Below, piece after piece: positions 420-43,762 of a stretch of DNA of 64,000 bases. Each line of letters starts with the position of its first letter. Within the stretch, counting starts at the first letter, position 1. A program made the position numbers and the translations under genes. The notes beneath the pieces were generated by a model. The model had not been told where the DNA came from and ran no database searches. It worked only from the letters and a program-made list of their open reading frames with translations. This DNA is from Streptomyces sp. NBC_00878 (GTDB taxonomy: Bacteria; Actinomycetota; Actinomycetes; Streptomycetales; Streptomycetaceae), in assembly GCF_026341515.1 (NCBI RefSeq), contig NZ_JAPEOK010000001.1:5146001-5210000 (forward strand), read 5' to 3'.

Positions 420-507
420 GGAGGATTCGCCTAGTGGCCTAGGGCGCACGCTTGGAAAGCGTGTTGGGGGCAACCCCTCACGAGTTCGAATCTCGTATCC
501 TCCGCCA
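420..507 (+). tRNA. tRNA-Ser (anticodon GGA), integration target
   Basis: Acceptor stem GGAGGAT (420-426) pairs with ATCCTCC (497-503), followed by discriminator G504 and encoded CCA (505-507). The anticodon stem CACGC/GCGTG holds the loop TTGGAAA with anticodon GGA at 454-456. The long variable arm (about 464-481) marks a class II tRNA. The T arm contains GTTCGAATC. From base 452 onward the gene is also the left attachment core of the adjacent AICE: integration regenerates an intact 3' half, so the tRNA stays functional. Confidence 0.96.
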
Positions 508-543
508 GTGCCTCACCGGGCACGATGTCGAAGGGCCCCACCG
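452..543 (+). repeat. att core 1 (attL), 92-bp direct repeat
   Basis: Bases 452-543 (tRNA-Ser from the anticodon loop to CCA plus 36 bp downstream) recur exactly at 15669-15760, and the first 62 bp recur again at 43274-43335. This is the usual attachment-site design of tRNA-targeted tyrosine integrases, whose crossover lies in the anticodon region. The integrase stop codon is only 27 bp past the repeat. Confidence 0.93.
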
Positions 544-563
544 CTTGCGGTGGGGCCCTTCGA
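528..563. terminator. perfect hairpin after tRNA/attL (16-bp arms)
   Basis: TCGAAGGGCCCCACCG (528-543) and its exact complement (548-563) enclose a 4-nt loop. It lies between the convergent tRNA and integrase genes and probably ends transcription of both. Near-identical hairpins follow the other two att cores, with different loops. Confidence 0.75.
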
Positions 564-569
564 CGGTTC

Positions 570-1853
570 TCAGCCCTCGTTGTCCTGGTTTTTGTCCACA
601 GCGGGTGTCTCCGGGGTTCCCCAGATGGCTTCGGCGATCTTCCGGGCAACGTCCTTGAGCATGGCGTCCGGCACGTGGAGGTACCGGGCTCGCATGCTTG
701 CGGAGGTGCCCGGCTCCCACCCCATGATCTGATCAATGACCCGGGCCGGGACACCGAGCAGCATGAGCACAGTGGCGGCCGTGTGCCGGGCGTCGTGCAG
801 CCGAGCGTTCCGAACCCTCGCGTCTTCCAGCAGTCGCTTCCAGTCGTGGTAGTCCGTGTTCGGGCTCAGCGGGCCACCCAGGGGCTTGGTGAACACGTAG
901 TCCGACTCGATCCACAGGTTGCCGGCCGCCTTGCGCTCGCGCGCTTGCGTCTCGGCATGTGCACGGAGCATGGCGACCAGCGGGCCGGGCAGGGGCACGG
1001 CGCGTCGGCCCGCTCGGGACTTGGTGTTCTTGGTCTCGCGCCGGACCTGCACCTTGTCCCGGCAGTACCCCGCCTTCCGGCCGCACGGTGAGGCTTCCGG
1101 GCACCCGTGCTCGTATCTGGGACGCAGACGGTTCCGACGCAGCTTCAGGTACTCGTTGTCCAGGTCGACGTCAGACCAGCGCAGTCCGAGTGTCTCGCCC
1201 TGCCGCAGTCCGAGCGCCAGTGCCAGCATCCAACGGGCGCTGTTCCGGCGCTTGTTGGCTTCCAGCAACAGGCACTGAACCTCTTCCACGGAGTAGGGCT
1301 CAACCTCTGATTCGTCCTCTTCCATCCGCGGCGGCTTCGCCAGCGCGGCGGCGTTCTTCGCCGCGTAGCCGCGCCGTACCGCCTCCCCCAGGGCGGTGCG
1401 GGCCGTGCGGTGAGCCTGGTGAGCGGTACCGGCCTTGCGCGCCCCTTTCGCCTGCATACGGCGATACAGACTCTCCAGGTGCTCGGGCTGCAACCGGTCA
1501 AGGCGGTGCTTGCCGACACCGGGCACGAGGTGAACGCGAACGGCGACCTCGTAGCCGTCGTAGGTGTTCTCGCTGACGGTCGGCTTCGCAATGTTCTCAA
1601 CCCAGTGCTGAAGCCACTTCTCAACCGTCCAAGCCTTGCCCGGCTGTTGCGCCGAACCCGCGTCGCGCTGCTTCTCCAGCTTCTTGACTTCCCCGACCAG
1701 GTCCTCGCGCGTCTTGCGCGTCAGGTGCCGGCGGTACGGCTCCCCGTTGTCCTTGTAGCCCATCGGGACGCGGGCGTGCCAACGGCCGTCTTTCCCGAGG
1801 TAGATCGCGGATTCGCCGTTGGCGCGGCGGGTGCCCTTCTTCTTCTCTGCCAC
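570..1853 (-). CDS. int: tyrosine integrase of the AICE
   Basis: A 427-residue tyrosine recombinase that would integrate and, with excisionase, excise the element at tRNA-Ser. The N-terminal arm/SAM-like DNA-binding region spans about residues 20-170 and the catalytic domain about 185-405. Catalytic residues visible: Arg217 (LGLRQGE), His353-x-x-Arg356 (HDAR), Gly378-Trp379 and nucleophile Tyr391 (RARYLHV). The start is GTG with AGGAG about 8 nt upstream. It lies directly inside attL with its 3' end facing the tRNA, the standard AICE arrangement, and a conserved hairpin leader separates it from the excisionase gene. A truncated relative of this gene survives at 43411-43580. Confidence 0.95.
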   Translation of the reverse strand: MAEKKKGTRRANGESAIYLGKDGRWHARVPMGYKDNGEPYRRHLTRKTREDLVGEVKKLEKQRDAGSAQQPGKAWTVEKWLQHWVENIAKPTVSENTYDGYEVAVRVHLVPGVGKHRLDRLQPEHLESLYRRMQAKGARKAGTAHQAHRTARTALGEAVRRGYAAKNAAALAKPPRMEEDESEVEPYSVEEVQCLLLEANKRRNSARWMLALALGLRQGETLGLRWSDVDLDNEYLKLRRNRLRPRYEHGCPEASPCGRKAGYCRDKVQVRRETKNTKSRAGRRAVPLPGPLVAMLRAHAETQARERKAAGNLWIESDYVFTKPLGGPLSPNTDYHDWKRLLEDARVRNARLHDARHTAATVLMLLGVPARVIDQIMGWEPGTSASMRARYLHVPDAMLKDVARKIAEAIWGTPETPAVDKNQDNEG

Positions 1854-1856
1854 AGG

Positions 1857-1936
1857 CAGGCTCCTGTTTCTTGGTGTCGGGATGGGGACCGGGGCGGCGG
1901 GCTGTCCTGTCCGGGAGTGCTGCCGCCCCGGGCGTG
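1857..1936 (-). promoter_or_regulatory. structured leader element, copy 1 (between xis and int)
   Basis: On the minus strand a CCGGGGCGGC...GCCGCCCCGG stem encloses the loop core GCACTCCCGGACAGGACAG, followed by a conserved ATCCCGACA tail just before the integrase ribosome site. The loop core and tail recur at 5293-5383 and 11150-11236 while stem bases change in compensating ways, which is evidence for a conserved RNA fold. Its place between an alpA-type gene and int recalls the int-alpA RNA motif described in Actinobacteria; I cannot run the covariance model to confirm this. Confidence 0.7.
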
Positions 1937-1937
1937 G

Positions 1938-2165
1938 TCAAGCGGCTCGTTTGGCTGCGCGTCGGCGGGCGAGGTATTCGGCGGGTGCGTCTGCGGGGAC
2001 GCGACGGAGACGGCCGATGTCGATGGACTCCAGTTCTCCAGCGCGGATGAGCGCGAAGCATGTGGTGCGGCCGATGCGGAGGCGGCGGGCGGCTTCTTCG
2101 ACGGTGAGGAGAACGAGGGTCGTGTCGTCGGCGGCGGGGGCCGTGAGGGTGCTGTGTTCGTCCAA
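1938..2165 (-). CDS. xis: excisionase / AlpA-type helix-turn-helix protein
   Basis: A 75-residue protein with a MerR/excisionase-like helix-turn-helix at about residues 19-60 (VEEAARRLRIGRTTCFALIR), followed by a basic tail (RRRAAKRA). The family bends att-site DNA to direct the integrase toward excision. It starts at TTG 2165, chosen because AGGAG lies 6 nt upstream and the coding frame begins there; no ATG fits. It sits upstream of int in the same direction, the usual xis-int pair. Confidence 0.85.
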   Translation of the reverse strand: MDEHSTLTAPAADDTTLVLLTVEEAARRLRIGRTTCFALIRAGELESIDIGRLRRVPADAPAEYLARRRAAKRAA

Positions 2166-2205
2166 GGCTCGCTCCTGTGGGGGCTGAGTTCATGGGCAGG
2201 TGCCG

Positions 2206-2470
2206 CCGCACAAACCGCAAAATCCGCAGAAAAGCCGGGAGTAGGCGTTGACCTGCGGTGATGCGGAGTGCGGGTGGTGACGGGGAGTGCTCCGCAGAAA
2301 TCCGCGATATTCCGCAAAAATCAGGGCCGGCCCCGGTGGTGGGGTGGTGCTCGGTTTTTTGCGGAATATCGCGGGATTGTGCGGCGGGCCTCCGGCCGGG
2401 ATGGGGCGGGGGTCCCGTCGCAGGTCAGCGGGGTGTCCCGGCTTTTCTGCGGATTTTGCGGTTTGTGCGG
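2206..2470. repeat. nested inverted repeats between xis and rep genes
   Basis: Outer arms 2206-2240 and 2436-2470 are a perfect 35-bp inverted repeat; inner arms 2302-2320 and 2356-2374 are a perfect 19-bp inverted repeat (CCGCGATATTCCGCAAAAA). The unit TCCGCA/TCCGCG recurs within the arms. The 330-bp segment between excisionase and the replication gene has no coding capacity I trust. It is a good candidate for the element's replication origin or an initiator/excision control region, but function is inferred from position only. Confidence 0.75.
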
Positions 2471-2495
2471 GAGGGGTTGAGGGCGCGGCCGGGGA

Positions 2496-4058
2496 TTACC
2501 GGCCGCCGTGGCGTAGGGCGGGGTGGGCCAACAGGCGGGGCGCCGGGGGCCGTCCGCGCTTGCCGGTGCGCTCGGGTTGGTAGGACCGTACGTATCCGTG
2601 GTCTTCCAGCAGCGCGAGGGCCGGTTCCAGGTCGGCGACGTTGGGGAACTCGCTGCGGGACACGGTGCTGAAGACGTCCCGCCGTTTGACGTCCGTCCAT
2701 CCCTTGTCCCGCAGTACTTCCAGAACGCTGCGGGCACGGGACACGACCGGATCGGCACCCATGGCGTCGAAGACGGCGAGGGCGTGGGCGGTGTAGTACT
2801 CCCCCAGCTCAATGGCCGCGTGCACGGTGGCCTCGGTCACCGGGTGGGCGTAGCCGTTGCCGCCGTGTTCGGCGAGGTGCAGCAACGCGGCCATGCGGGC
2901 GGTCGCTCCGACCAATTTCCCGGCCCAGTCGGTGATGTGGCCCAGCTTCCCGCCGCGTGCCTTGAGCCACGGTTCGACGCGTTCCTGATAGGCGATCAGG
3001 GCCACGTCCGCCTCGGGGGTGAGCTGGATGACGGCCGGGTCGGTCCAGTCCGCGAGGGACAGGGTGAGTTCGATGACCCGGGCGGTATAGGTGGCGGCCG
3101 TCTGTTCGGGGACCGGGTCGGTGATGACCTTCCGCTCACCGACCGTCGACACCGGCAGTGAGTACAGGAAGCGTCCCAATAGGCCGCGCCCCTTACCGCC
3201 CTTGATCTTCCCCATGTCCACGAGCACATCGGGTTGAACGGCCAAACCCATGGTCAGGGCGGGGGCGTCGACGTACTCGCGGCGGGTCTGCCGGTTCACC
3301 CGCAGGCGTCCCCCGGCATGGCCTTTGAGGAAGACCTCCATGTTGGGACTGCCTGAGTAGCGGCCGGCGATGATGTCGAAGATGCCGCCCTCATCGCTCA
3401 TCACCGACAGCCGGCCGCCCTGTTCCGCGATGAGCGAAGTGACCGTCTCGGGTGTGCAGTCGTCCGCCAACAGGAGCGGTTCGGCCGGCACGGTGAGCGT
3501 GTCGGCGGTCTGCGCGAGGCCGACGGCGGTGGCCACCATGTCATCCCGCTTGTCGCCGTCAGCGGACGCGGCCTTGGCGGTTGCCTTGTCGGCCGCTTCC
3601 TTGGCCAGCCTCGCCGTCAGCTCCGCTTCCACGATCATGGGCTTCATAGCCGCCTGAAGCTGTTTCTCCGCCTCGTACAAGGGGTCGGTGAGCAGTCCGA
3701 AGACGGCGGTCTTGCGGTTGCCGGGCGGGAGCGCGACCACGGTGAAGAGGTTGGTGGGCTCACGCCAGTTGCCGCGCACGTGGACGACCGACCGGCCGCC
3801 GGCCGCCGTGGCGAGCACGGCGAGGGCGATGGACCCGGCGAGGTCGACCGGGGTCTGTGTCTCTTCCGCGACGGCCGCCACGAACTCCCCCAACCAGGCA
3901 GGGAGGACGTGGGCAGGGAACGCGGGCCGATCGCGACGGCCGGTGAGGGGAATGGGGTCCTCCCACACGTCCGGTGCCGCGTCATCCTCGCCGGGCGGGT
4001 CTTCCAGGGTGGGCAGTCCGGCCCACAGGTCGGGGCTGTCCACAGGCTGTGGAGTCAT
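2496..4058 (-). CDS. DUF3987-type AICE replication protein
   Basis: A 520-residue protein of the DUF3987 (YfjI-like) family, common in plasmids and AICEs beside prim-pol primases and believed to act in replication. A P-loop-like segment PPGNRKT lies at residues 111-117. The C-terminal quarter (about 410-520) resembles a winged helix and ends in a basic tail (GKRGRPPAPR). Start ATG 4058 is preceded by GGGAGGG and overlaps the stop of the upstream 107-aa gene by 4 nt, so translation is coupled. The nested inverted repeats lie directly past its stop. It is the most likely initiator/helicase partner of the primase upstream. Confidence 0.8.
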   Translation of the reverse strand: MTPQPVDSPDLWAGLPTLEDPPGEDDAAPDVWEDPIPLTGRRDRPAFPAHVLPAWLGEFVAAVAEETQTPVDLAGSIALAVLATAAGGRSVVHVRGNWREPTNLFTVVALPPGNRKTAVFGLLTDPLYEAEKQLQAAMKPMIVEAELTARLAKEAADKATAKAASADGDKRDDMVATAVGLAQTADTLTVPAEPLLLADDCTPETVTSLIAEQGGRLSVMSDEGGIFDIIAGRYSGSPNMEVFLKGHAGGRLRVNRQTRREYVDAPALTMGLAVQPDVLVDMGKIKGGKGRGLLGRFLYSLPVSTVGERKVITDPVPEQTAATYTARVIELTLSLADWTDPAVIQLTPEADVALIAYQERVEPWLKARGGKLGHITDWAGKLVGATARMAALLHLAEHGGNGYAHPVTEATVHAAIELGEYYTAHALAVFDAMGADPVVSRARSVLEVLRDKGWTDVKRRDVFSTVSRSEFPNVADLEPALALLEDHGYVRSYQPERTGKRGRPPAPRLLAHPALRHGGR

Positions 4059-4378
4059 GAGACGGCCCTCCCTTCGGCGGTGGTGGTGTGGGGGCAGATG
4101 CCGACGATGACGCGGGCGGTCAGCCTGATGACGGCGGCACGGCCCCGGGCGCGTTCGTGGTGTCCACAGGCGCAGATCCAGTCCGCGACGGGTACGCCCT
4201 CGCACTGGATCTGAAGACCCGGGGTGATGCCGGTGACGGTGACCGTCTGCCGGTCAGAACCAACGGCAGAAAGGACGCCCTTACGGGCGGCGACCTTCGG
4301 TTCGCCCAAGGTCGGCCGTTGCGGGCCCTGTACGGCGCCCTGAGGGTTGTTCGCGGGGGTTCGGGATGCTTTGTTCAT
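4055..4378 (-). CDS. small AICE protein with CxCxxH motif
   Basis: A 107-residue protein of unknown function. Cysteines and histidines cluster in WICACGHHERARGR and GICPHTTT, which could bind zinc and resembles other small AICE zinc-binding proteins. It overlaps both neighbours by 4 nt (ATGA), so it is translationally coupled between the primase and the DUF3987 gene and may help replication. No recognised domain otherwise. Confidence 0.6.
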   Translation of the reverse strand: MNKASRTPANNPQGAVQGPQRPTLGEPKVAARKGVLSAVGSDRQTVTVTGITPGLQIQCEGVPVADWICACGHHERARGRAAVIRLTARVIVGICPHTTTAEGRAVS

Positions 4379-5292
4379 GCCGCGCGCTCCGCAGCCGCCT
4401 CAAGGCCGTTGGCGACCGCGCGGCGGGCGTAGGACTCCGGGACGCCCACCAAGACGGCGGCGGCCACGATCTCCTCACCGATCGCCGCGAGGCCGCACGG
4501 TCCGGGACACGCGGCGTGCTGAGCGGCGAGGAACCGTGCGACGCCGAACGCCTGTGAGCCGGCGCCGGATTCAGTGCGCGCCCGTACGAGGGCGAGGCCG
4601 CGTTCAAGGCCGGTACGGACGTAGCGCTCGGTGTGGCGGCACCCGGTGGCCACGCTCCGGTCCCAGGTGGCGCGCTCGGGGACAGAAGAGACCACCTCCC
4701 CCGGGGCGCGGGTGGTCTCTTCCTTCACCAGCAGGGCGCGCACGGCCGCCGGCAGATCGACCATGCGACCGGCGCCGGGTCCGAGCCAACGGGCGTACTG
4801 CATGAGCGACTTGATATCCACGCCCGGCCGGACCGCGTTGGACGACTGCATGACGCCCCGATAGATCCAGTGCTCGCCCCGCGTCGTCGGCACGATCCGC
4901 GTGGCGGGCAAGGTCTCACGGGCCCATACGACGGCCGTCACACTGTCGAGGTCCACCACGGTCACCCCAGCCCCACCAGGGTGGTAGGCGACGGACACGG
5001 CCTGTCGCCATGCCAGGGCCCATCCAGGCGAGGTGAGTACAGCCGGGTCGATGGTGGCCGCAGCCCACGCGTGGCAGGGGGCGAGGCACTGGCAGGGGCC
5101 CGCGTTCTTCATGTTCGGACGGCCGCCGCATGCGCCGTCCGCGCACCGGTGGCAGTTCCCGAACGGCACCTTGCCTGCCCGCAGGGGCAGCGGCGGCACA
5201 CCGGCCGCCGCAAGGTCCAGCGCGGTGCGCAGGTTACTCCCGTCCGGGTGATCCGCAGCGCTGGGGCGCCCGGTCTTGCAGTCAGGTGTCAT
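4375..5292 (-). CDS. bifunctional primase/polymerase (prim-pol) domain protein
   Basis: A 305-residue protein with an N-terminal prim-pol domain (about 20-200). Visible features are the acidic pair in VVDLDS (Asp114, Asp116) and the strand with TTRGEHWIY (His141), which match the archaeo-eukaryotic primase fold's metal and nucleotide sites. A cysteine-rich stretch at residues 47-73 may bind zinc. The family makes primers and extends DNA in plasmid and AICE replication. It is the first gene of the three-gene replication operon and sits downstream of leader element copy 2. No helicase domain is fused; that role may fall to the DUF3987 neighbour. Confidence 0.85.
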   Translation of the reverse strand: MTPDCKTGRPSAADHPDGSNLRTALDLAAAGVPPLPLRAGKVPFGNCHRCADGACGGRPNMKNAGPCQCLAPCHAWAAATIDPAVLTSPGWALAWRQAVSVAYHPGGAGVTVVDLDSVTAVVWARETLPATRIVPTTRGEHWIYRGVMQSSNAVRPGVDIKSLMQYARWLGPGAGRMVDLPAAVRALLVKEETTRAPGEVVSSVPERATWDRSVATGCRHTERYVRTGLERGLALVRARTESGAGSQAFGVARFLAAQHAACPGPCGLAAIGEEIVAAAVLVGVPESYARRAVANGLEAAAERAA

Positions 5293-5383
5293 CCTTGAGG
5301 TCTCCTGTTCTGCTACGTCGGGATACGGAGACCGAGGGCGGCGGGCTGTCCTTGTCCGGGAGTGCCGCCGCCCTCGGGCGTAG
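5293..5383 (-). promoter_or_regulatory. structured leader element, copy 2 (upstream of primase operon)
   Basis: On the minus strand an 11-bp stem CCGAGGGCGGC/GCCGCCCTCGG encloses GCACTCCCGGACAAGGACAG, followed by TATCCCGACGTA and the primase ribosome site. The loop and tail match copies 1 and 3; the stem differs but still pairs. It fills the whole gap between the genes at 5384 and 5292. Confidence 0.72.
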
Positions 5384-5842
5384 CTAGTTGAAGTGGTTGC
5401 GCTTGAAGACGGCCTTGCGGATGTGGAACGTGTTGCCGCCGCCGGAGCCGTGGCCGAAGATCTGCACGGCGATCCAGCCGCCGAAGATGACGGCGGCGAG
5501 GGTGATGAGCTGGGTGATGAACGCGGTCAGGGCGGCGATGAACGCGGTCAACAGGAACAGCCCGCCGCACACCGCGCCGAACCCGATCCCTCCGAGCGCG
5601 ATGTTCACCGCCGTGCGCGAGACGGCCGGCTTGGCCACGACCGGTTCGGGCTTGGTGGGCTCCATGGCGTAGCCGGTGACGACGCGGCCGTCCGGCAGGA
5701 CGATGCTCGCCACGGCCGGGATCGTGCCGGGCTGCACGGGCACGAGCGGCATCGTGTGCGTGGGCGCGAGGGGGGCGGGGCGGTGGACTTCAACGGCCGT
5801 GTGGTTCCCGGCCGAACGGCGGTACGCGGTCGGTTCGTTCAC
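5384..5842 (-). CDS. small AICE membrane protein
   Basis: A 152-residue protein. About 70 polar and proline-rich residues precede a long hydrophobic stretch (about 80-130, two to three helices) and a basic C-terminus (IRKAVFKRNHFN). Start GTG 5842. It lies downstream of tra and the other small membrane genes in the same direction. Proteins like this in AICEs and Streptomyces plasmids are usually assigned to intramycelial spread (Spd); that role is inferred from context. Confidence 0.6.
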   Translation of the reverse strand: MNEPTAYRRSAGNHTAVEVHRPAPLAPTHTMPLVPVQPGTIPAVASIVLPDGRVVTGYAMEPTKPEPVVAKPAVSRTAVNIALGGIGFGAVCGGLFLLTAFIAALTAFITQLITLAAVIFGGWIAVQIFGHGSGGGNTFHIRKAVFKRNHFN

Positions 5843-5858
5843 GTCCTGATCTCCCTGT

Positions 5859-6053
5859 CTATCGGCCGGTGTCGGCGAGGGCGCCGGTCACGGCGGTCAC
5901 GAGCTGGTTGACGGTGTCGCTCGCGTCGGTGGCGGCGAGGTAGAAGCCGAAGAGCGCGGCGATGACGGCCGCGCCGGCGCCGAGCGCCTTGAAGCGCAGC
6001 AGCACGGCGAGTGCGGCGGCGAGCAGCAGTACGAGCGGGATGGTGATGACCAT
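5859..6053 (-). CDS. 64-aa membrane protein (possible spread protein)
   Basis: Starts at ATG 6053 with GGAGGA just upstream. The short product is almost wholly hydrophobic from residue 2 to about 48 (two predicted helices) with a polar tail. No domain is recognised. It lies in the run of small membrane genes downstream of tra, 16 nt before the next gene, so a Spd-like role is plausible but unproven. Confidence 0.6.
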   Translation of the reverse strand: MVITIPLVLLLAAALAVLLRFKALGAGAAVIAALFGFYLAATDASDTVNQLVTAVTGALADTGR

Positions 6054-6067
6054 GGGTCCTCCGGGAA

Positions 6068-6319
6068 TCAGCGGTGGGTACAGGTGGGGTAGGCGGAGCC
6101 GTGGAAGCAGTGCTTGTAGTCGTCCCGGGTGACGCGGAAGGCGTGGGGGCGGCCGTCGGTGGTGACGGTGAGCCGGTAGTGCCAGCCGCCGGACTTGAAG
6201 TACGCGGCGCTGCGGTCGGTGACGGTGCCGGTCGGGCCGGGGGCGTAGTTGGGGCTGCACGCGCTCAGAGCCAGGACGGTCCCGACGGACACGAGGGCGG
6301 TTGCCAGGGCCTTGCGCAT
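6068..6319 (-). CDS. small secreted lipoprotein
   Basis: An 83-residue protein with a lipoprotein signal (MRKALATALVSVGTVLALSAC, lipobox LSAC, Cys21). The mature part contains two further cysteines near the C-terminus (CFHG, PTCT) that could form a disulfide. Function is unknown. It belongs to the AICE transfer region; surface exposure would fit a role in mating contact or exclusion, which is inference. Confidence 0.65.
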   Translation of the reverse strand: MRKALATALVSVGTVLALSACSPNYAPGPTGTVTDRSAAYFKSGGWHYRLTVTTDGRPHAFRVTRDDYKHCFHGSAYPTCTHR

Positions 6320-6345
6320 GGCGGGTTGCTCCTTCGGCAGGGCGG

Positions 6346-6597
6346 TCAGCGGGTGCCGGCGCGGTAGGTGCGCGCGGCGCGGTTGTAGATCCAGCGGCCG
6401 ATGCGTATGCGCTTGCCGGTCGCGTGGCAGCGGCGGCAGTCACGGCCGCGCCTGAGGCGTCCCTTGCGGTCGGTCTTGAAGTCGTGGCCCATGCCGCGGC
6501 ACTTGCGGCAGTCACCGAACGGGCTCAGCCAGCACTTACCGCCGTAACCGAGCGTGACGGTGAGTAGGCAGGCGATAGCGAGGAGGGGAAGGCTCAT
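6346..6597 (-). CDS. small zinc-ribbon membrane-anchored protein
   Basis: An 83-residue protein with an N-terminal hydrophobic helix (about 2-20) and two CxxC-type knuckles, CRKCRGMG and CRRCHATG, like half of a DnaJ cysteine-rich domain, in a strongly basic context. Similar proteins are frequent in Streptomyces AICEs and plasmids. Zinc binding is likely; the partner is unknown. It is the first gene downstream of the repeat cluster that follows tra. Confidence 0.65.
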   Translation of the reverse strand: MSLPLLAIACLLTVTLGYGGKCWLSPFGDCRKCRGMGHDFKTDRKGRLRRGRDCRRCHATGKRIRIGRWIYNRAARTYRAGTR

Positions 6598-6639
6598 CAG
6601 AGGGCCTCTCAGGCGGGTTTTGAGGGTTTCCGCAGGTGG

Positions 6640-6733
6640 GCCGCTACTTGCTAGCGACCTGATCAGGTGCCGTTTTGGTCGCTAGCAGGGTCGCTTGCGC
6701 AAGCGACGGGCGATGCTTGCGCAAGCGACCCCA
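6640..6733. repeat. inverted-repeat cluster downstream of tra (possible clt)
   Basis: A dense set of small palindromes: TTGCTAGCGACC and GGTCGCTAGCA form one inverted pair, and GCTTGCGCAAGC occurs twice within TCGCTTGCGCAAGCGAC contexts. The hexamer GTCGCT/AGCGAC appears at least five times. It lies just past the tra stop codon (6739). It could be a terminator, but the repeated short motif next to an FtsK-type Tra also fits a cis-acting locus of transfer, where TraB proteins bind direct repeats. Confidence 0.55.
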
Positions 6734-6738
6734 GAGAG

Positions 6739-34367: not shown

Positions 34368-34404
34368 GGCGGTCTGTCTCCGTTCAGGCGGGGTGTGGGT
34401 CTCG

Positions 34405-35646: not shown

Positions 35647-35703
35647 GCCCCCACTCTCGGCGGCGGGGTGAGGCATCGTCATGGGCCGTTGGTCCCGGAA
35701 GGG

Positions 35704-35719
35704 GTACCCGTGGGGGTAT
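35704..35719. promoter_or_regulatory. CstR-type operator G
   Basis: Read on the minus strand ATACCCCCACGGGTAC, 57 bp upstream of the SQR 2 start. The core equals site E. Confidence 0.75.
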
Positions 35720-35735
35720 ACCTTCGACCCCGGGC

Positions 35736-36407: not shown

Positions 36408-36435
36408 GGGGCACTCTCCTCGAAGGTGAACTCGA

Positions 36436-36451
36436 ATACCCCCTAGGGTAT
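36436..36451. promoter_or_regulatory. CstR-type operator H
   Basis: ATACCCCCTAGGGTAT, identical to site B, 28 bp upstream of the peroxiredoxin start and within the divergent region shared with the OsmC gene 129 bp to the right. Confidence 0.78.
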
Positions 36452-36579
36452 TTCGGTCCATGAGGTTCGCCCCAGGGCCGAACGGCCCTCTCTCCGATCC
36501 CCTCGGCCTCTCGCGAAGACGCACCGGGCGCGGTGCACTGGATACCGGAGCGACTGATCGGACCCGAGGAGACGCGGCC

Positions 36580-37032
36580 ATGACCCACACCGCACCTGAC
36601 ACCGCCGCCCCCGCCCGTCCGCCGGTAGCGGATGTGCACCGGCTGGAGGTCGCCCATGTCGACGGGGACGTGTACGCCGTCGAGGTACGCGGCCACCGGC
36701 TGCTGGTCGACCAGCCCGAGGACGCCGGCGGGCAGGACACCGCCCCCACGCCCACCGAGCTGTTCGCCGCGTCCCTGGCTTCCTGTGTCGCCTTCTACGC
36801 CGGCCGTTACCTGCACCGTCACGGCCTGGACCGCACCGGGCTGCGGGTGCGGACCGAGTTCACGATGTCCACCGACCGCCCGGCCAGGATCGACACGGTC
36901 CACGTGAGGGTCCTGCCGCCTCCCGGCCTGCCCGAGCAGCGCCGCGCCGCTCTCCTCGCCGTCGCCTCGCACTGCACCGTCCACAACACCCTGCACCAGC
37001 CGCCGGAGATCGTCATCAGGCTGGAGCCCTGA
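36580..37032 (+). CDS. OsmC/Ohr-family peroxidase
   Basis: 150 residues with the two family cysteines, Cys69 (SLASCVAFYA) and Cys132 (ASHCTVHNTL). OsmC proteins reduce organic peroxides and also react with persulfides. ATG 36580, after GAGGAG. Divergent from the peroxiredoxin and followed after 2 nt by the class V aminotransferase remnant. Confidence 0.85.
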   Translation: MTHTAPDTAAPARPPVADVHRLEVAHVDGDVYAVEVRGHRLLVDQPEDAGGQDTAPTPTELFAASLASCVAFYAGRYLHRHGLDRTGLRVRTEFTMSTDRPARIDTVHVRVLPPPGLPEQRRAALLAVASHCTVHNTLHQPPEIVIRLEP

Positions 37033-37034
37033 CG

Positions 37035-37580
37035 ATGTCCGCCCGTCCGGTGACCGGCCAGGCGCCGCCCGCGCTTCCCCTCCTGGAACGCATCCGCCAG
37101 GGGATCATCGGCGACGACGAGGTGATGGACGGCCCCTACGGGCCCCGGCGCGTCGTCTACGCCGACTACACGGCCTCGGGACGCTCGCTGGACTTCGTCG
37201 AGGACTTCGTCCGCGACCACGTCCTGCCGCGCTACGCCAACACCCACACCGAGAGCTCCAGTACCGGACTGCAGACCACCCGGCTGCGGGAGGACGCCCG
37301 CCGGATCATCGGCGACGCGGTCGGCGGCACCGTCTCCTTCGTCGGCCCGCTCGGCCACCGCTATCTGGACGACCCGGTCGCCCGCGAGGAGGGCGGCACC
37401 CCGGCCATCGTGGAGTCCATCCGCGCCGGTCTGGTCGTCGCCCTCAAACAGGCCGTCGGCACCGACACCATCCAGACCGCGGAGGAACGCCACTGGCGCC
37501 ATGCCCTGCGCAGCTGGGACCGCAACCCCGCCATCGAGATCCTCGGCAACCACGAAGCCCGCCGACTGTCGATCGTCTCA
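37035..37580 (+). pseudogene. class V aminotransferase (cysteine desulfurase-like), deleted
   Basis: The first 97 codons match the start of a large class V PLP enzyme (VVYADYTASGRSLDFVEDFV; YANTHTESSSTGLQTTR). At about 37325 it jumps directly to a late part of the same family (LDDPVAREEGGTPAIVESIR ... NPAIEILGN) and similarity ends near 37580, although the frame stays open to 37745. The central PLP-lysine region and the C-terminus are missing, so it cannot be active. Second broken desulfurase-type gene in the segment. Confidence 0.78.
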
Positions 37581-37657
37581 TCACGGGTTGGCATGCGGCG
37601 ACTCTGGTCTCGGCGGATCCACGCGGATCTGTCCATGGTCCCGGGACGATGTCGCGG

Positions 37658-38059
37658 TCATAGCCCGATCATCCGGACCTTGCTGCCGCACAGCCGGGTC
37701 ATGTCATCGACATCCGACGTGAGGATGGCGACCGGGCCAGGCTGACGCAAGGCCGCTTCCGCGACGGTGGCGTCGATCGCGTACTTGTGTCCGTGCAGAC
37801 CGGCGCCCTTGAGCAATTGGGCCGCCGCCTTGGCCGCTGCCTCCGTGATCGCCTCCACCTTGACCCGGGAGAGCGCCCATTGCAGTCGGGGCAGGTTCAC
37901 CCTGGCGTGGCTCACCTCCACGATGGTGTTGGCGCTGACGACAAGGTCCGCTCCCATGTCGTGGAACACCTGGAACATCGCCAGAATTTTCCGGTCCTGC
38001 GCCACCCAGGCCGACAGCCCCTCACTGTCCAGGACGACGGTCTCAATGTGCCCGCTCAC
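37658..38059 (-). CDS. VapC-like PIN-domain toxin
   Basis: 133 residues of PIN fold: VVLDSEGLSAW gives Asp10, SANTIVEVSHAR the central Glu, and AIDATVAEAAL plus ILTSDVDDM the C-terminal aspartates. VapC toxins are ribonucleases held inactive by the partner. Its start overlaps the stop of the antitoxin gene by 4 nt. The 3' end faces the aminotransferase remnant. Confidence 0.82.
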   Translation of the reverse strand: MSGHIETVVLDSEGLSAWVAQDRKILAMFQVFHDMGADLVVSANTIVEVSHARVNLPRLQWALSRVKVEAITEAAAKAAAQLLKGAGLHGHKYAIDATVAEAALRQPGPVAILTSDVDDMTRLCGSKVRMIGL

Positions 38060-38304
38060 ACGGCGCTCGCGCCGCCGGCGGCCGACGTCGTACCGAAGAT
38101 CCGCGCCCGCGCCTCGGCCAGCTCTTCCTCACTGAAGGCCCCATGCTCGTCCGTGTGGCTGCGCAGGTCGGCCCCCAGGAGCTGGTGCCGGATCTGCCTG
38201 GCGACCGCTTCGGCCACGTAGCCGGAGATGTTGTCCGTGATCTTCTTCAGCTCCGCCACCTGCTCAGTGGGGAGTGTCACCGTGATGCGTGTGGTGTCAG
38301 CCAT
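38056..38304 (-). CDS. VapB-like antitoxin (ribbon-helix-helix)
   Basis: 82 residues from ATG 38304; a start at 38316 adds four residues. The N-terminus TTRITVTLPTEQVAELKKI is a ribbon-helix-helix DNA-binding motif and the acidic C-terminal part would wrap the toxin. Coupled to the VapC gene. A palindrome directly upstream is its probable operator. Confidence 0.8.
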   Translation of the reverse strand: MADTTRITVTLPTEQVAELKKITDNISGYVAEAVARQIRHQLLGADLRSHTDEHGAFSEEELAEARARIFGTTSAAGGASAV

Positions 38305-38312
38305 AGCCGCAA

Positions 38313-38328
38313 GCATACTGCGGTATGC
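38313..38328. promoter_or_regulatory. VapB operator candidate
   Basis: GCATACTGCGGTATGC: 6-bp arms around TGCG, overlapping the antitoxin start region, where the VapBC complex normally represses its own operon. Confidence 0.6.
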
Positions 38329-38433
38329 GCGCTACGTGCTGTCCGTTTCCTCGCAGTCGGTCCGGTCAACGGCAGTCGGGGCGGCTGTCCGATCGAGCTG
38401 GGGCTCAGCTGGGCAGTTCTACGACGCGCCAGT

Positions 38434-38745
38434 TCAGCGGGCCCAGTAGCGGTATGCCTCGATCCACTGCCAGCCCTCGGGGGCGGGTTCCGGCAGCGGC
38501 AGATCCAGAATTCCGATGTCCTGTCGGACCGACCCCCGGGCGCAGCGTGCGACCACGCGTCCGTCCTCGGCCAGATCGACACCGACCACGCTCACCTCGA
38601 CGCCGAGAACAGTCGTGGTGAACGGCATGGCAAGACTTTCCTCGATCATCGTGAAGAAGCCGGTGAGCTGCTCATCCTCGCCGTAGGCGTCGACGGTGGC
38701 CTCTTCGATCAACGCCTCCAGCGCGGCTGGGGTCCAGGTGCTCAT
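38434..38745 (-). CDS. small conserved actinobacterial protein
   Basis: 103 residues, acidic, starting MSTWTPAALEALIEEATVDAYG, ending EGWQWIEAYRYWAR. I recognise this as a widespread Streptomyces protein often labelled calcium-binding, but no EF-hand is evident. Divergent from the SNF2 helicase gene; the two may share a promoter region (38746-38928). Confidence 0.7.
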   Translation of the reverse strand: MSTWTPAALEALIEEATVDAYGEDEQLTGFFTMIEESLAMPFTTTVLGVEVSVVGVDLAEDGRVVARCARGSVRQDIGILDLPLPEPAPEGWQWIEAYRYWAR

Positions 38746-38928
38746 GGCCTCACCGTAGCGCTGCACCGTACGGTTGAGGACCGGTGTGTTCAGCAGCGGC
38801 GTATCCGTCGCGGCGCCGTCGCCGGCAGTCAAGCCAAGGCTCGCGGTTGCCAGCGTGTGACGTTGCCTGGTGGGGTTCGGTAGTGCGCGGCCCAGGGGAG
38901 GGCCCGGCAAGCGACAGGGCGGAAGAGA

Positions 38929-41856
38929 GTGGCACGAGTCGTCGTACGAGAGCCGAGTACGGGCGCGAGGAGCGCGCCGCCGCTGGCCCGGCAGGAAACA
39001 TCCGCCTTCGTGAGGGAGCTGCTCGGCGCCGGCTGGGCGGCGGTGTTCCTGCCCGGTGAGCCCGCCCGCCTTGGACGGCTGCTGCTGTGGAAGCCGACCG
39101 GGGCAGCAGCCGGAGACAGTACGGCACCCACCGGCCTCGAGACCGAGGCGGTGGACCTGGTCCTGCCGCACGGCCGCTCGGTCAGGCGGCGCAGGGTCGA
39201 GGGTTACGCGCTGCCTGTCGCCGTCGCTGTCTCCGCCCTGGCCAATGCGGAGCCGACGCATCCCTCCGGCGCCGCCTGGCAGGCCGCCACTCGCTTCGCG
39301 CTGCGGCTGCTCGCCGACGGCCGCCTGCACCCGGCCATCACCCCCGCCGGTTACGACACCTGGCAGGTGGGTCCCTGCACCGCCGCCCAGCGCCAGACGC
39401 TGGACGCCCTGGCCGCCGCCTTCCCGCCACACGCCCACTGCCTGCCCGAGCCAGGTCCTGCGCCGGTGCGCATCGCCGAACCGGCTGCGCTGGTACGCCA
39501 GTTCTGCGACGCGGTCGCCGACGATCTGGTCCGTACACCGGCCGCGCCGCTCGCCATGGGAGCGCTGCCGTACGCCTGGCGCGAGGCCCGTGCCGTGCCC
39601 ACCTTGCGTGAATGGGCCGAGGAAACCCAGGCGGCGCTCACCGCCGAGGTCAGTGTCTCCCTGCGCGTCGACGTACCCGAAGGACGCCGACGGCAGTTCC
39701 GGGCCGTCCTGCAACTGCACACCGCGGCGGACCCGGCGCTCGTCATCGAAGCCGCACAGCTGTGGAGCGAGCCGGCCGAAGTGGAGCGGCTGCTCGGCCC
39801 GCGGGCCGAGACCGAGACCCTGCTCGCCCTGCGCCGCGGCGCCCGCGCCTGGCCCCCGCTGCGGAGGCTGCTCGACGATGCCGCTCCCGATCAGCTCCGG
39901 TTGACCGACGACGAAGCCTTCGAACTCCTGGGGGACGCCACGGACGCGCTGCGCGCGGCCGGTGTCGACGTGCACTGGCCGCGCGACCTGGTCAAGGCGC
40001 TCACCGCGACCGCGGAGATCGGGCAGCGCACCGCCCCCGGTTCCACCGCGGGCGGCCTGCTGGACACCGAGGCCCTCCTCGACTTCCGCTGGCAGGTCTC
40101 CCTGGGTGGCGAGCCGCTCACCGAGGCCGAGATGGATGCCCTCGCAGAGTCACGCCGTCCCCTCGTCCGGCTTCGCGACCAGTGGGTGGTCGCCGACCCG
40201 AAGCTGGTGGCCCGCGCCAAGCGCCGCCGGATGGAACCGCTCACCCCCATGGAGGCGTTGAGCGCCGCGCTGACCGGCGAGGCCGAGCGAAGCGAGATGG
40301 GGGTCCCCCCGGCCGGAGGCTGGGGGAGGGACGGTGACCGGGTCCCCTGTGCGGCGGTCGGTGCGCTCGGCGACTTGGTCGCTCGTATCCGCGACCCCGA
40401 GTCCCGCACCCCCGTGCCCCAGCCCGCCGCGCTCAAGGCCACGTTGCGCGAGTACCAGAAGCGGGGCCTGGCCTGGCTGGCCGAGATGTGCTCACTCGGC
40501 CTCGGCGGCTGCCTCGCCGACGACATGGGTCTGGGCAAGACCATCACCCTGCTCGCGCTGCACCTGCACCGCCAGACCGACCCCGCCACCGCCGGCCCCA
40601 CGCTCGTCGTCTGCCCCACCTCTCTGCTCGGCAACTGGCAGCGCGAGGCCGCCAGGTTCGCCCCTTCCATCCCCGTGCGCCGCTACCACGGCGGCGACCG
40701 CCACCTGAAGGACCTCGCCGATGACGAGATCGTCCTGGTCACCTACGGCGTCCTGCGCCGCGACCGGGAGACCCTCACCGAGCACGACTGGTCGCTGATC
40801 GCCGCCGACGAGGCACAGCACGTCAAGAACCCCTACGCCGTCACCGCCCGTGAGCTGCGTGCCCTGCCCGCCCGCGCCCGCGTCGCCCTCACCGGCACCC
40901 CCGTGGAGAACAACCTCTCCGAACTGTGGGCGCTCCTCGACTGGACCACCCCCGGGCTCCTCGGCTCACTCACCGCCTTCCGTGACCGGCATGCCCGCGC
41001 CATCGAGGCGGGCGAGGATCCCGAGGCGGCCGAGCGCCTGTCCCGTCTCGTACGTCCCTTCCTGTTGCGCCGCAAGAAGTCCGACCCCGGCATCGCACCG
41101 GAACTGCCGCCCAAGACCGAGACCGACCACGTCGTCCCGCTGACGGCCGAGCAGACCAGCCTGTACGAGGCACAGGTCCGCGAGACCATGGCGAAGATCG
41201 CGGAGTCGGAGGGCATCGCCCGGCGCGGTCTGGTACTCAAGCTGCTCACCGCGCTGAAGCAGATCTGCAACCACCCCGCCCAGTATTTGAGAGAGCACAG
41301 CCTGCGCCAGTCCACTCCCCTGCGGGGCCGCTCCGGCAAGCTCGACCTGCTCGACGAACTTCTCGACACCATCACCGCGGAAGGCGAATCCGTGCTGGTC
41401 TTCACGCAGTACAAACAGATGGCGGCTCTGCTGGAGAAGCATCTCGCCGAGCGCGGCGTCCCCACTCTCTTCCTGCACGGCGGCACCCCCGTCGCGCGGC
41501 GTGAGGAGATGGTGGACCGCTTCCAGCGCGGTGAAGTGCCGGTGTTCCTGCTGTCGTTGAAGGCGGCGGGCACCGGACTCAACCTCACCCGCGCCACTCA
41601 CGTCGTGCACTACGACCGCTGGTGGAACCCGGCCGTCGAGGAGCAGGCCACCGACCGCGCCTACCGCATCGGCCAGGACAAACCCGTCCAGGTACACAAG
41701 CTCCTCGCGGAGGGAACCGTGGAGGACAAGGTGGCGAAGCTACTCGAAGCCAAGCGCGCCCTCGCCGACGCCGTCGTCAGCTCCGGCGAGGCAGCCCTGA
41801 CCGAACTGTCCGACGCCGACCTCGCCGAACTCGTCGCCCTGGGAAGGCAGTCATGA
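38929..41856 (+). CDS. SNF2-family DEAD/DEAH helicase
   Basis: 975 residues. N-terminal bacterial SNF2-associated domains (about 1-480), then the SNF2 ATPase: Walker A DDMGLGKT (about 531-538), motif II AADEAQH (about 625), and helicase C region with SLKAAGTGLNLTRAT and QATDRAYRIGQ. Start GTG 38929. A 50-bp dispersed repeat at 40279-40328 adds the in-frame stretch EAERSEMGVPPAGGWGR ahead of the ATPase. Translationally coupled (ATGA) to the SWIM protein gene, a pairing widespread in actinobacteria and probably acting on DNA or in chromatin-like remodelling. Confidence 0.9.
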   Translation: MARVVVREPSTGARSAPPLARQETSAFVRELLGAGWAAVFLPGEPARLGRLLLWKPTGAAAGDSTAPTGLETEAVDLVLPHGRSVRRRRVEGYALPVAVAVSALANAEPTHPSGAAWQAATRFALRLLADGRLHPAITPAGYDTWQVGPCTAAQRQTLDALAAAFPPHAHCLPEPGPAPVRIAEPAALVRQFCDAVADDLVRTPAAPLAMGALPYAWREARAVPTLREWAEETQAALTAEVSVSLRVDVPEGRRRQFRAVLQLHTAADPALVIEAAQLWSEPAEVERLLGPRAETETLLALRRGARAWPPLRRLLDDAAPDQLRLTDDEAFELLGDATDALRAAGVDVHWPRDLVKALTATAEIGQRTAPGSTAGGLLDTEALLDFRWQVSLGGEPLTEAEMDALAESRRPLVRLRDQWVVADPKLVARAKRRRMEPLTPMEALSAALTGEAERSEMGVPPAGGWGRDGDRVPCAAVGALGDLVARIRDPESRTPVPQPAALKATLREYQKRGLAWLAEMCSLGLGGCLADDMGLGKTITLLALHLHRQTDPATAGPTLVVCPTSLLGNWQREAARFAPSIPVRRYHGGDRHLKDLADDEIVLVTYGVLRRDRETLTEHDWSLIAADEAQHVKNPYAVTARELRALPARARVALTGTPVENNLSELWALLDWTTPGLLGSLTAFRDRHARAIEAGEDPEAAERLSRLVRPFLLRRKKSDPGIAPELPPKTETDHVVPLTAEQTSLYEAQVRETMAKIAESEGIARRGLVLKLLTALKQICNHPAQYLREHSLRQSTPLRGRSGKLDLLDELLDTITAEGESVLVFTQYKQMAALLEKHLAERGVPTLFLHGGTPVARREEMVDRFQRGEVPVFLLSLKAAGTGLNLTRATHVVHYDRWWNPAVEEQATDRAYRIGQDKPVQVHKLLAEGTVEDKVAKLLEAKRALADAVVSSGEAALTELSDADLAELVALGRQS
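40279..40328. repeat. dispersed Streptomyces repeat inside helicase gene
   Basis: The segment contains GAGCGAAGCGAGATGGGGG, then TCCCCCCGGCCGGAGGCTGG and GGGAG, a sequence I recall as a common intergenic repeat in Streptomyces genomes that can fold into a hairpin (GGGGGTCCCCCC and CCGGCCGG parts). Here it is inside a coding frame and keeps it open. Confidence 0.55.
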
Positions 41857-43088
41857 GCCCCGCTGTCCCCGGCCCGCGCCGTGCGCCCGCCCGCGGCAAG
41901 CGAGCCTTCGCCGCGACATGGTGGGGCCAGGCATGGGTGGCCGCCCTGGAGGACTCCACCCTGGACGCCGGACGGCTCTCGCGCGGACGCACCTACGCCC
42001 GCAAAGGCATGGTCGGCCCGGTCACCGTCGCTCCGGGCAAGGTCACCGCCGCTGTCCAGGGCAGCCGCCCGCGCCCGTACCGCTCCTCAGTCCACCTGCC
42101 CGTCCTCACCGACCCTCAGTGGGACACCCTGCTCGACACGATCGCGGCCCGCGCCGGACATCTCGCAGCACTTCTCGACGACGAGATGCCCGCCGAACTC
42201 GTGGACGACGCCCGGCACGCAGGCGTCCCACTGCTCCCACTGCCCACCGAGCTCGATCCGGAGTGTTCCTGCCCCGACTGGGGATACCCCTGCAAGCACG
42301 CCGCCGCGCTCTGCTACGCCATCGCCGCCACCATCGACACCGACCCGTTCGTGCTCTTCGCGCTGCGCGGCCGCGGTCGCGAGGAGGTCTTCGCCCAGCT
42401 ACGCGTACGCCGTACGGCAGCACAGGAGACCGCAGCCCAACCGGCACCTGCCGGCATCCCGGCCGCCGCCGCGTACGCCCACTGGGCCGAAGAGCCCCCC
42501 GCACTGCCCGAACTCCCGGAACCCGCTGCCCACACCACAGCACTGCCCGTCGCCCCGCCACCCGGCACCGGCCTGGCCGCCGCGGACCTGGAACGCCTCA
42601 TGGCCGACGCCACCGCGCGCGCCGCCCGGCTCCTCGCGGGCGACACCGCCGACCTGCACCTGACCCAGCACCAGGACGCCGTCCGCATCGCCGCGAGCAA
42701 CCCCGGACCCGAGTGGTTCCACCACCTGATCCAGAACACCGGCACCAAACCCACTGTCTTCGCACGCCTCACCCGCGCCTGGCGCCACGGCGGCCCCACG
42801 GGAATCACCGTCGCCGAACAGCCCTACGCCCCCGACCCGACGGTGATGAAGACCGCCCGCACCGCCCTGGACACGGCCCTCGCCGAGATGACCGACTCCC
42901 CCACACACCTCAGAGCCTGGCGCAACCGCCTCACCCTCACCCACCACGGCATCCAGCTGCGTCTGGGCCCCGACGCCCGCTGGTACCCCTACCTCCAGGA
43001 CGACGACGGCGAATGGTGGCCCGCGGCACCAGCCGACAGCGACCCGGTCACCGCGCTCACCGCGGCCTGGTCGCAGAACGGGGAGTAA
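41853..43088 (+). CDS. SWIM zinc-finger protein
   Basis: 411 residues with a SWIM motif CSCPDWGYPCKHAAALCY (CxCx6CxH) at about residues 131-149. The N-terminus (FAATWWGQAWVAALE) and the long C-terminal half are typical of the SWIM partner of bacterial SNF2 helicases. Likely binds DNA or the helicase. ATG 41853 overlaps the helicase stop by 4 nt. Last gene before att core 3. Confidence 0.87.
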   Translation: MSPAVPGPRRAPARGKRAFAATWWGQAWVAALEDSTLDAGRLSRGRTYARKGMVGPVTVAPGKVTAAVQGSRPRPYRSSVHLPVLTDPQWDTLLDTIAARAGHLAALLDDEMPAELVDDARHAGVPLLPLPTELDPECSCPDWGYPCKHAAALCYAIAATIDTDPFVLFALRGRGREEVFAQLRVRRTAAQETAAQPAPAGIPAAAAYAHWAEEPPALPELPEPAAHTTALPVAPPPGTGLAAADLERLMADATARAARLLAGDTADLHLTQHQDAVRIAASNPGPEWFHHLIQNTGTKPTVFARLTRAWRHGGPTGITVAEQPYAPDPTVMKTARTALDTALAEMTDSPTHLRAWRNRLTLTHHGIQLRLGPDARWYPYLQDDDGEWWPAAPADSDPVTALTAAWSQNGE

Positions 43089-43273
43089 AGAGGCGATTCC
43101 CTGCCGAGCAGGAACCACGAGCAGAAGCTGGACACATTCACGCTGCTCCCATTTCCATGGTTGCAGTTCTGGTTGCATTCACCGGCGTACAGAACCGTTC
43201 AGAACCCTCGCCGGGACCAGCTGCACCGCAGGTCAGGACGTTGCCGTACGCCCCAGAACCCCCGGACGAACAT

Positions 43274-43335
43274 TTGGAAAGCGTGTTGGGGGCAACCCCT
43301 CACGAGTTCGAATCTCGTATCCTCCGCCAGTGCCT
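43274..43335 (+). repeat. att core 3 (62-bp tRNA-Ser 3' repeat)
   Basis: Identical to 452-513 and 15669-15730, then diverging. It has the anticodon loop to CCA of tRNA-Ser but no 5' half, so it is an attachment site. It closes the sulfur segment; an integrase remnant follows on its right. Confidence 0.92.
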
Positions 43336-43362
43336 GCAGGACAACGAGGTCTGAAGACAACG

Positions 43363-43396
43363 TCGAAGGGCCCCACCTCGCGGTGGGGCCCTTCGA
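43363..43396. terminator. hairpin after att core 3
   Basis: TCGAAGGGCCCCACC and GGTGGGGCCCTTCGA with a 4-nt loop: the third copy of the hairpin that follows each att core. It extends outward into a longer GACATCGTGCCC palindrome-like part. Confidence 0.7.
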
Positions 43397-43410
43397 CATC
43401 GTGCCCGGTG

Positions 43411-43580
43411 ACATCCTTGACCATGGCGTCCGGCACGTGGAGGTACCGCGCCCGCATGCTCACGGACGTGCCCGGCTCCCATCCCATCATCTGATCGATG
43501 ACGCGGGCCGGGACTCCGAGCAGCATGAGCACGGTGGCGGCTGTGTACCGAGCGTCGTGCAGCCGAGCGTTCCGGACCCC
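43411..43580 (-). pseudogene. int: integrase 3'-end remnant of a third element
   Basis: About 55 codons on the minus strand closely match residues 346-402 of the AICE integrase: VRNARLHDAR, then VLMLLGVPARVIDQMMGWEP and SMRARYLHVPDAM, including the catalytic His, Arg and Tyr. The last 25 codons of the normal C-terminus are replaced by the att-side hairpin, and everything upstream of the remnant is lost. It lies right of att core 3, exactly where the integrase of another tandem element would be. Confidence 0.88.
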
Positions 43581-43762
43581 CGGACGACGGCAGACAGTGA
43601 CGCGCGAGTACGACCGTAGTCATTGGACAGTGACCTCGCTCGCCAGCACCTTCGCCACCGTTATGAGAATGGGCCGATGTCACACCCTGTGGATCTGGGA
43701 CGCGGCCGAAGCGAAGGGTGCGGGCTGGATTGTTGGCTCCAGCCCTGATACATCACTTTGTC

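Follow-up and report, generated by a model that had tools for sequence, protein, structure and literature searches.

An AICE Beside an Integrase-Less Sulfur-Gene Mosaic at a Streptomyces tRNA-Ser(GGA) Gene, and Putative Arm Repeats That Track Integrase Clades

Introduction

Cis-mobilizable elements (CIMEs) of streptococcal integrative and conjugative elements (ICEs) are reportedly flanked by att sites, devoid of a recombinase and stacked beside an integrative element, and their mobilization in cis is said to have been demonstrated. We describe here a comparable organization in Streptomyces sp. NBC_00878, within a stretch of 64,000 nucleotides of its 11.1-Mb genome (G000, C1:5146001-5210000; hereafter the window), where a tRNA-Ser(GGA) gene is followed by an actinomycete integrative and conjugative element (AICE; segment 1, 508-15,668) and then by an integrase-less segment carrying sulfur genes (segment 2, 15,731-43,273). 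By contrast with the streptococcal CIMEs, the neighboring AICE carries a class of putative integrase arm repeats different from that of segment 2. The locus is likely a stack of elements at tRNA-Ser, comprising a class A AICE, an integrase-less fusion element with class C/D ends, and a broken class A-like integrase with further remnants.

In Streptomyces ambofaciens ATCC 23877, the 42-kb CIME XSAM1 adjoins the AICE pSAM2 (PMC4891641). Segment 2 likewise lies directly beside an AICE; the statement on XSAM1 brings no arm-class comparison. Segment 2 appears to be a fusion of sulfur genes with a small unit that is widespread. In a Streptomyces population, several elements with different integrases and identical direct repeats, together with a remnant, are arrayed at a tRNA-Arg, and composite mobilization was proposed (PMC9513070). 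This is in line with the present array, but concerns another tRNA, and the defective AICEs described there keep traB, which was not recognized in segment 2. The Frankia AICE Fean6303 also has three att copies; its alternative excision products were shown (PMC3218068), whereas at our locus excision is predicted. In the open-licence literature, no paper on integrase-less satellites at tRNA-Ser in Streptomyces was found, and the matches listed for CIME excision in trans via arm-type sites held no title on the tRNA-Ser site.

The tRNA-Ser(GGA) Gene and Three att Cores

An earlier interpretation of this DNA, made from its letters without database searches (hereafter the sequence-only reading), had proposed three direct att cores, sharing 92 bp between the first two and 62 bp among all three. 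These lengths proved exact. The last 56 bases of tRNA-Ser and the next six form a 62-bp core, present with 0 mismatches at 452, 15669 and 43274; att1 and att2 are identical over 92 bp (452-543 / 15669-15760), and either of them shares 62 bp with att3. No further copy of the 62-mer was found elsewhere in the window with up to 26 mismatches allowed, nor was a fourth core found at the right edge with a 30-mer and up to 11 mismatches, a scan that gave back the three known cores and, at 34989, one place with 11 mismatches. A strong hairpin lies 3' of every core (fold z -7.1, -7.9, and -4.4), as had been noticed. Since it also lies 3' of the tRNA in a relative whose site is nearly empty (G095, locus L048), we take it to be the tRNA's native terminator, of which the third copy is inverted.

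420-507, plus strand: tRNA-Ser(GGA), the attB gene, its 3' part restored by core 1 (ARAGORN; Rfam 420-504)
452-513, plus strand: att core 1, 62 bp (identity with att2 extends over 92 bp)
527-564, plus strand: hairpin, taken as native tRNA terminator (fold prediction; also in L048)
15669-15730, plus strand: att core 2 (sequence identity scan)
43274-43335, plus strand: att core 3 (sequence identity scan)

Just upstream of the tRNA, a small SRP RNA gene (window 250-348, minus strand) belongs to a part of the left flank that is conserved in relatives.

Arm-Repeat Classes and Integrase Clades

As the cores within the stack are identical, they cannot tell which integrase moves which element. Paired repeats beside the cores, which are probably integrase arm-binding sites, may do so. 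Three patterns were distinguished, namely A (TTGTCCTGGTYTTTGTC), B (CCGTCTCAGTTTCCGTCTCA) and C/D (GGTYKCAGTTNTGGTYKCA). Once segments below 400 bp had been set aside, 41 of 67 segments between neighboring cores could be classified at both ends, and the two ends were of the same class in 39 of the 41 (28 C/D-C/D, 6 B-B, and 5 A-A, the other two being B-C/D), which are not 41 independent cases (see below). Among shuffled flanks, 1 of 2680 was given a class. The distance from the core was nearly fixed for each class and side. C/D arms lie 93-94 bp right of the start of the 30-mer core in 43/46 cases and 140-142 bp left of the core in 36/45, A arms 101-104 bp right in 15/15 and 142 bp left in 7/7, and B arms 92 bp right in 17/18 and 163 bp left in 7/8. 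In the window, the AICE is of class A at both ends and segment 2 of class C/D at both ends, at the usual distances (93 and 141 bp).

580-596, plus strand: class A arm repeat TTGTCCTGGTTTTTGTC, 102 bp right of the 30-mer core start, overlapping the 3' end of int
15553-15569, plus strand: class A arm repeat at the AICE right end, 142 bp left of core 2
15788-15806, plus strand: class C/D arm repeat GGTCTCAGTTTTGGTCTCA, 93 bp right of core 2
43159-43177, plus strand: class C/D arm repeat GGTTGCAGTTCTGGTTGCA, 141 bp left of core 3

The repeat class follows the integrase clade. Among 20 integrases placed in a tree, there is one cluster for A arms (8 integrases), one for B arms (4) and one for C/D arms (3), and a fourth group of five has unassigned arms. 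The tRNA-Ser(GGA) gene appears, from these sequences, as an integration hotspot for at least four related integrase clades. A fresh test was made on 17 integrases, one of them already in the tree, from genomes carrying the SNF2/SWIM unit described in the next section. Few as the cases were, all nine integrases that were new to the tree, fell in clade A, B or C/D and had an arm in reach (3 A, 3 B, and 3 C/D) had the predicted class nearest and on their own side of the core, any other class appearing only beyond the core, and two integrases of the unassigned clade had none of the three arms nearby, as expected. Integrase matches in L040 and L043 were rejected; the genes lie on the opposite strand, the signal came via a long frame of L049, and both matches were gone with an integrase profile rebuilt from trimmed domains.

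The genome offers no apparent partner for the ends of segment 2. The exact C/D pattern occurs genome-wide only at these two ends, with five more places at one mismatch, and no C/D integrase was found in the whole genome, the best match being the AICE's own (59%), followed by one at 57%. Of the 22 loci with a core, all but L211 and L250 were searched as carriers of the SNF2/SWIM unit; among these 20, a C/D integrase at 75-83% was found in five, in two with a stop inside the match, and none at ≥75% in the other 15. Nine C/D segments in nine genomes (G000, G128, G107, G141, G097, G136, G047, G096, and G094), hand-picked from the 28 with their places set by hand, gave no PF00589 or PF00239 match.

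Outside the window, at G000:C1:4435518-4435685 (L005), lies a second scar of C/D type, in which a partial copy of the core, at 93%, has an arm-like repeat with one mismatch 115 bp to its left and is followed by hairpin-like sequence; ARAGORN found no tRNA in that locus. At G000:C1:5495167-5495223, the C/D pattern matches four times on the minus strand, each with one mismatch, the matches overlapping in 12-bp steps.

Segment 2 Is a Mosaic

The att2-att3 segment (27.6 kb) had been described as one integrase-less sulfur island. Its lack of an integrase is borne out, as no tyrosine (PF00589) or serine (PF00239) recombinase matched between att2 and att3. Its unity is not: by sequence comparison, it is a mosaic in which sulfur genes are joined to a smaller, widespread att-flanked unit. 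No transfer gene was found among the 29 segment 2 proteins scanned with Pfam, a scan that did not take in every small open reading frame (ORF) and whose 30th protein falls right of att3, and no transfer, replication or integration gene was recognized in the segment. Segment 2 resembles a CIME in having the att flanks of an integrative element and neither a recombinase nor recognized conjugation genes of its own.

15804-20848: left sulfur genes, encoding MFS, MBL-rhodanese, ArsR-rhodanese, cysteine desulfurase (two reading frames) and TusA (plasmid relatives)
within 22921-37579: sulfur block, first part, with a two-component system, rhodaneses, SQR-like, MBL-rhodanese and TauE
within 22921-37579: sulfur block, continued, with a CsoR-like repressor, DsrE2, DsrC, a second SQR-like protein, peroxiredoxin, OsmC and a truncated class V aminotransferase
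37579-37582: junction of the sulfur block and the SNF2/SWIM unit (comparison with G068 and core-to-core relatives)
37658-38259, minus strand: toxin-like gene with a PIN domain (weak match), together with a small partner gene (family scan)
38929-41856, plus strand: SNF2-family helicase with DUF3670 (family scan)
41937-43088, plus strand: SWIM zinc-finger protein (family scan)

The right-hand part is the SNF2/SWIM unit. In G096, a segment of 6.1 kb from core to core is matched over most of its length by window 37,579-43,327, at 94.8% identity. Across named genomes, 77 loci were reached with the SWIM protein; 60 of them are in named Streptomyces, and 22 of the 77 have a tRNA-Ser core. The right 5.7 kb of segment 2 recurs at 92-96% identity in 21 loci of named genomes (unit ≥91% identical over >2500 bp, by which L250, holding cores and pieces of the unit, falls outside the set), and 20 of these 21 have the tRNA core; the counter-case named by the sequence-only reading, the same genes in the same place without att repeats, is therefore not what was seen for this part. 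In nine genomes, the unit lies between two cores 5.5-6.1 kb apart. Among relatives of the unit below 88% identity, the core was found in one locus only (L211) among the matches listed. In all five loci holding both, the unit is 94-95% identical whereas the copC flank is 70-74% identical, which, together with its recurrence between cores, gives good evidence from sequence that the unit spread horizontally as a defined unit.

The unit's usual left end, which in ten carriers shows GGTTGCAGTTTCGGTTGCA, is absent in the window, where the left arm of segment 2 has the GGTCTC form; this is in line with fusion between two elements of class C/D. The DpdE and ZorD models match the SNF2 protein in their helicase parts, and no whole defence system was found among ten proteins scanned; a role of the SNF2/DUF3670 helicase and SWIM pair in defence is only a thought that we do not put forward as a claim.

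The sulfur genes have other relatives. Plasmid records that match the left genes (15.8-20.8 kb) over most of their length come from Streptomyces and Rhodococcus, at 72-78% identity, and neither half of segment 2 was covered to 80% by any plasmid record retrieved. The closest copy of the right-hand block is not at a tRNA-Ser site but in a chromosome arm of G068, a locus 91-98% identical to window 22,921-30,268 and 31,443-37,579, and the join at 37,579 is clean. Two genes look damaged, the cysteine desulfurase being split over two frames and the class V aminotransferase, compared with its counterpart in G068, missing an internal stretch and the end. The sulfur block also contains an 83% direct repeat (window 30861-31125 and 32133-32397), the second copy lying inside the CsoR-like repressor gene, and a second DsrE2-DsrC-SQR-like stretch, 86% identical to the window's, is found outside the window at G000:C1:1603034-1605222.

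Accretion at the Same Site in Relatives

Accretion of elements, already described at a tRNA-Arg in Streptomyces (PMC9513070), had been suggested for this tRNA, together with a search for an empty site in related genomes. Both a nearly empty site and parallel arrays were indeed found. Of 150 relatives searched, 80 sites were fetched, chosen by rank and contig quality and not at random; within the fetched stretch, at least two cores were present in 30 of the 80 and at least three in six, with a maximum of four (G141), these counts being lower bounds as L046 and L131 are short. Accretion at tRNA-Ser(GGA) is therefore ordinary. At the G095 site, which is nearly empty, this hairpin comes after the tRNA, and a copC-like gene matching the window from about 56,955 stands about 77 bp further on. 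In G024, an integrase scar similar to the remnant in the window (see below) lies alone between the tRNA and copC.

From these comparisons, foreign DNA spans 508 to about 56.95 kb, where the tRNA-adjacent sequence of relatives begins. A truncated integrase had been noticed right of the third core, and this remnant stands (43391-43582); foreign DNA continues beyond 43.6 kb to about 56.95 kb.

43337-43411, minus strand: inverted terminator and arm block, 75 bp, inverted relative to 513-587
43391-43582, minus strand: remnant of a clade A-like integrase, 86% identical to 629-820
43600-56950: further accreted DNA with no detectable att core, ending at the conserved copC-like gene

The PF00589 match of the remnant is below the curated cut-off. 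Among the loci scanned for arm distances, a near-exact pattern for the inverted joint at att3 matched the window only; inversion of 43337-43411 by a hairpin-mediated flip is a guess.

Gene Content of the AICE

Segment 1 had been called an AICE, and its sequence agrees, most of the expected genes being recognizable and a tyrosine integrase being accompanied by att repeats at the 3' end of a tRNA gene. Alongside the integrase lie an ORF resembling Xis, genes for a DUF3987 protein and an FtsK-like protein, and a trio of helix-turn-helix (HTH), Nudix and HD genes, the HTH and FtsK matches being weak.

570-1853, minus strand: AICE tyrosine integrase, clade A (PF00589; tree)
1938-2165, minus strand: putative excisionase, a 75-aa HTH-like ORF (assigned by eye, without a family call)
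2496-4205, minus strand: DUF3987 protein, probable replication gene (family match; relative in L186)
4375-5292, minus strand: conserved AICE protein whose position points to a possible prim-pol (no family match)
6739-9060, minus strand: TraB/FtsK-like DNA translocase with Walker A GAVPRQGKT (motif and conserved relatives)
9433-10590, minus strand: conserved AICE protein, spread-like by position (no family match)
11266-13603: HTH (plus strand, weak match), Nudix (plus) and HD (minus) trio, resembling described AICE xre-nud-mdp clusters
14176-15420, minus strand: PIN_8 protein, AICE cargo (Pfam)

The replication role of the DUF3987 gene is one that we presume from its position and from known AICE gene sets. 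The FtsK-like product had no Pfam match in the first scan and a weak FtsK match (E 0.045). Clusters of this HTH-Nudix-HD type are on record for AICEs (PMC3218068). G058 and G088 carry, at this tRNA, relatives that match window 0.4-11.4 kb piecewise at 75-88%. A tRNA-Ala called by ARAGORN at 3903-3992 was rejected, as it lies inside the DUF3987 gene and has no Rfam match.

Mobility of Segment 2 and Alternative Explanations

In the explanation that we prefer, each of three integrase clades goes with a repeat class of its own, placed next to the core at near-fixed distances. Incoming elements would restore the tRNA and push older ones outward, so that the AICE is probably the youngest, and it is predicted to leave via att1 x att2 using its own Int and Xis. 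Segment 2 would have been made by joining sulfur genes to the widespread 6-kb SNF2/SWIM unit, the att core between them being lost on fusion. Such core loss between neighbors can explain unit fusion, in line with two relatives: L225 has lost the core between a right-end C/D arm and the unit's left arm, which are 108 bp apart, and L200 likewise lacks the core in front of the unit. For att2 x att3, segment 2 would then need the C/D integrase of an incoming element, and would otherwise be stranded.

Several points weigh against this explanation. The arm patterns were derived from the first 20 loci and then applied to the same loci, and 10 of the 28 C/D-C/D segments carry the same SNF2/SWIM unit, for which reasons the 39 of 41 concordant segments do not count as 41 independent cases. 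Two segments pair B with C/D, and 26 of the 67 have at least one end without a class. In the fresh test, two of five C/D integrases had neither arm nor core in reach, and for one of the other three the nearest arm is 9.2 kb off. Three clade-less integrases away from the tRNA-Ser core have B-like repeats (scores 0.90-0.95) 83-1133 bp off, hence these repeats are not exclusive to clade B. The tie between C/D integrase and C/D arm comes from three complete elements and three further loci only. One of the 21 high-identity loci of the unit, L195, has no tRNA-Ser core, and core loss before the unit was seen in L200 and L225, not directly in the window. What the sequence shows are the cores, the repeats and their geometry, the match of class to clade, the mosaic make-up and the lack of the integrase, whereas arm function, excision of the AICE, loss of a core and the order of events are inferred.

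The sequence-only reading had proposed that the AICE's Int and Xis could mobilize segment 2 in trans (att2 x att3) or both segments jointly (att1 x att3). The cores are identical, and a Frankia element with three direct repeats was excised in two forms, tandem AICEs being excised singly and together (PMC3218068); composite movement was also proposed for Streptomyces tandems of an AICE and a defective AICE (PMC9513070). Moreover, L141 and L154 also have elements whose left end is of class A and which have a C/D arm just past the next core. The proposal is nevertheless weakened, as the arm classes of the AICE and segment 2 differ, the class tracks the integrase clade with near-fixed geometry, a cognate C/D integrase is absent from the genome, and an att1 x att3 product would carry a C/D arm at its right end. 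We regard such mobilization as unlikely, and the AICE is probably not the natural mover of segment 2. The repeats could also be no functional arm sites but merely conserved int 3' ends or copies of one ancestor, in line with the overlap of the class A left repeat with the int 3' end and with the relatedness of many C/D segments; this is improbable, as the same class is found at the end far from int at a different near-fixed distance, and as C/D repeats persist at the ends of the nine segments without a PF00589 or PF00239 match.

Segment 2 could instead be a decayed AICE whose integrase was deleted, an immobile cargo in a family that is not mobilized in trans, which we hold to be possible without being probable. 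Its two damaged genes (the cysteine desulfurase in two frames and the class V aminotransferase without its inner stretch and end), the lack of a helper integrase in this genome and, at ≥75%, in 15 of 20 unit carriers, and the described decay of AICE cargo (PMC9513070) speak for it. Against it, nine genomes have the SNF2/SWIM part as a unit of 5.5-6.1 kb from core to core, with high identity beside divergent flanks, and such a recurrence of one unit with constant ends makes independent decay hardly plausible. Conjugative transfer of the chromosome is known in Streptomyces, and the unit could have spread by such transfer followed by homologous recombination between tRNA flanks, which needs no integrase. 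This is very unlikely, with flanks 70-74% identical beside an element 94-95% identical, unit ends that coincide with att cores, and a variable place in the array.

Beyond the stacked-element explanation, we tentatively suggest that integrase-less C/D units are att satellites of AICEs, keeping only core and arm sites. Such satellites might perhaps be moved in trans by C/D integrases of passing AICEs, and stack, fuse at tRNA-Ser and gather cargo such as the sulfur genes. With similar caution, they may be pictured as small cassettes, some with a toxin-antitoxin-like pair and one cargo module such as SNF2/SWIM. The arm code would then tell integrase specificity within a stack. More generally, if repeat class tracks integrase clade with near-fixed spacing, the pairing of integrase and element would be predictable from sequence, and integrase-less segments, easily filed as debris, could be recurrent mobile cargo units.

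Minor Observations

Very small C/D core-to-core segments are found at L141:16731-18005 and L154:9562-12045, and share an ORF that by eye is antitoxin-like. In the window, an HNH-endonuclease gene (54338-55246) recurs near the tRNA-Ser site in several relatives at 77-88% DNA identity, and lies just right of a core in some of them (L135, L165, L190, L197, and L202). The copC-like gene contains internal 15-bp tandem repeats (window 58162-58236).

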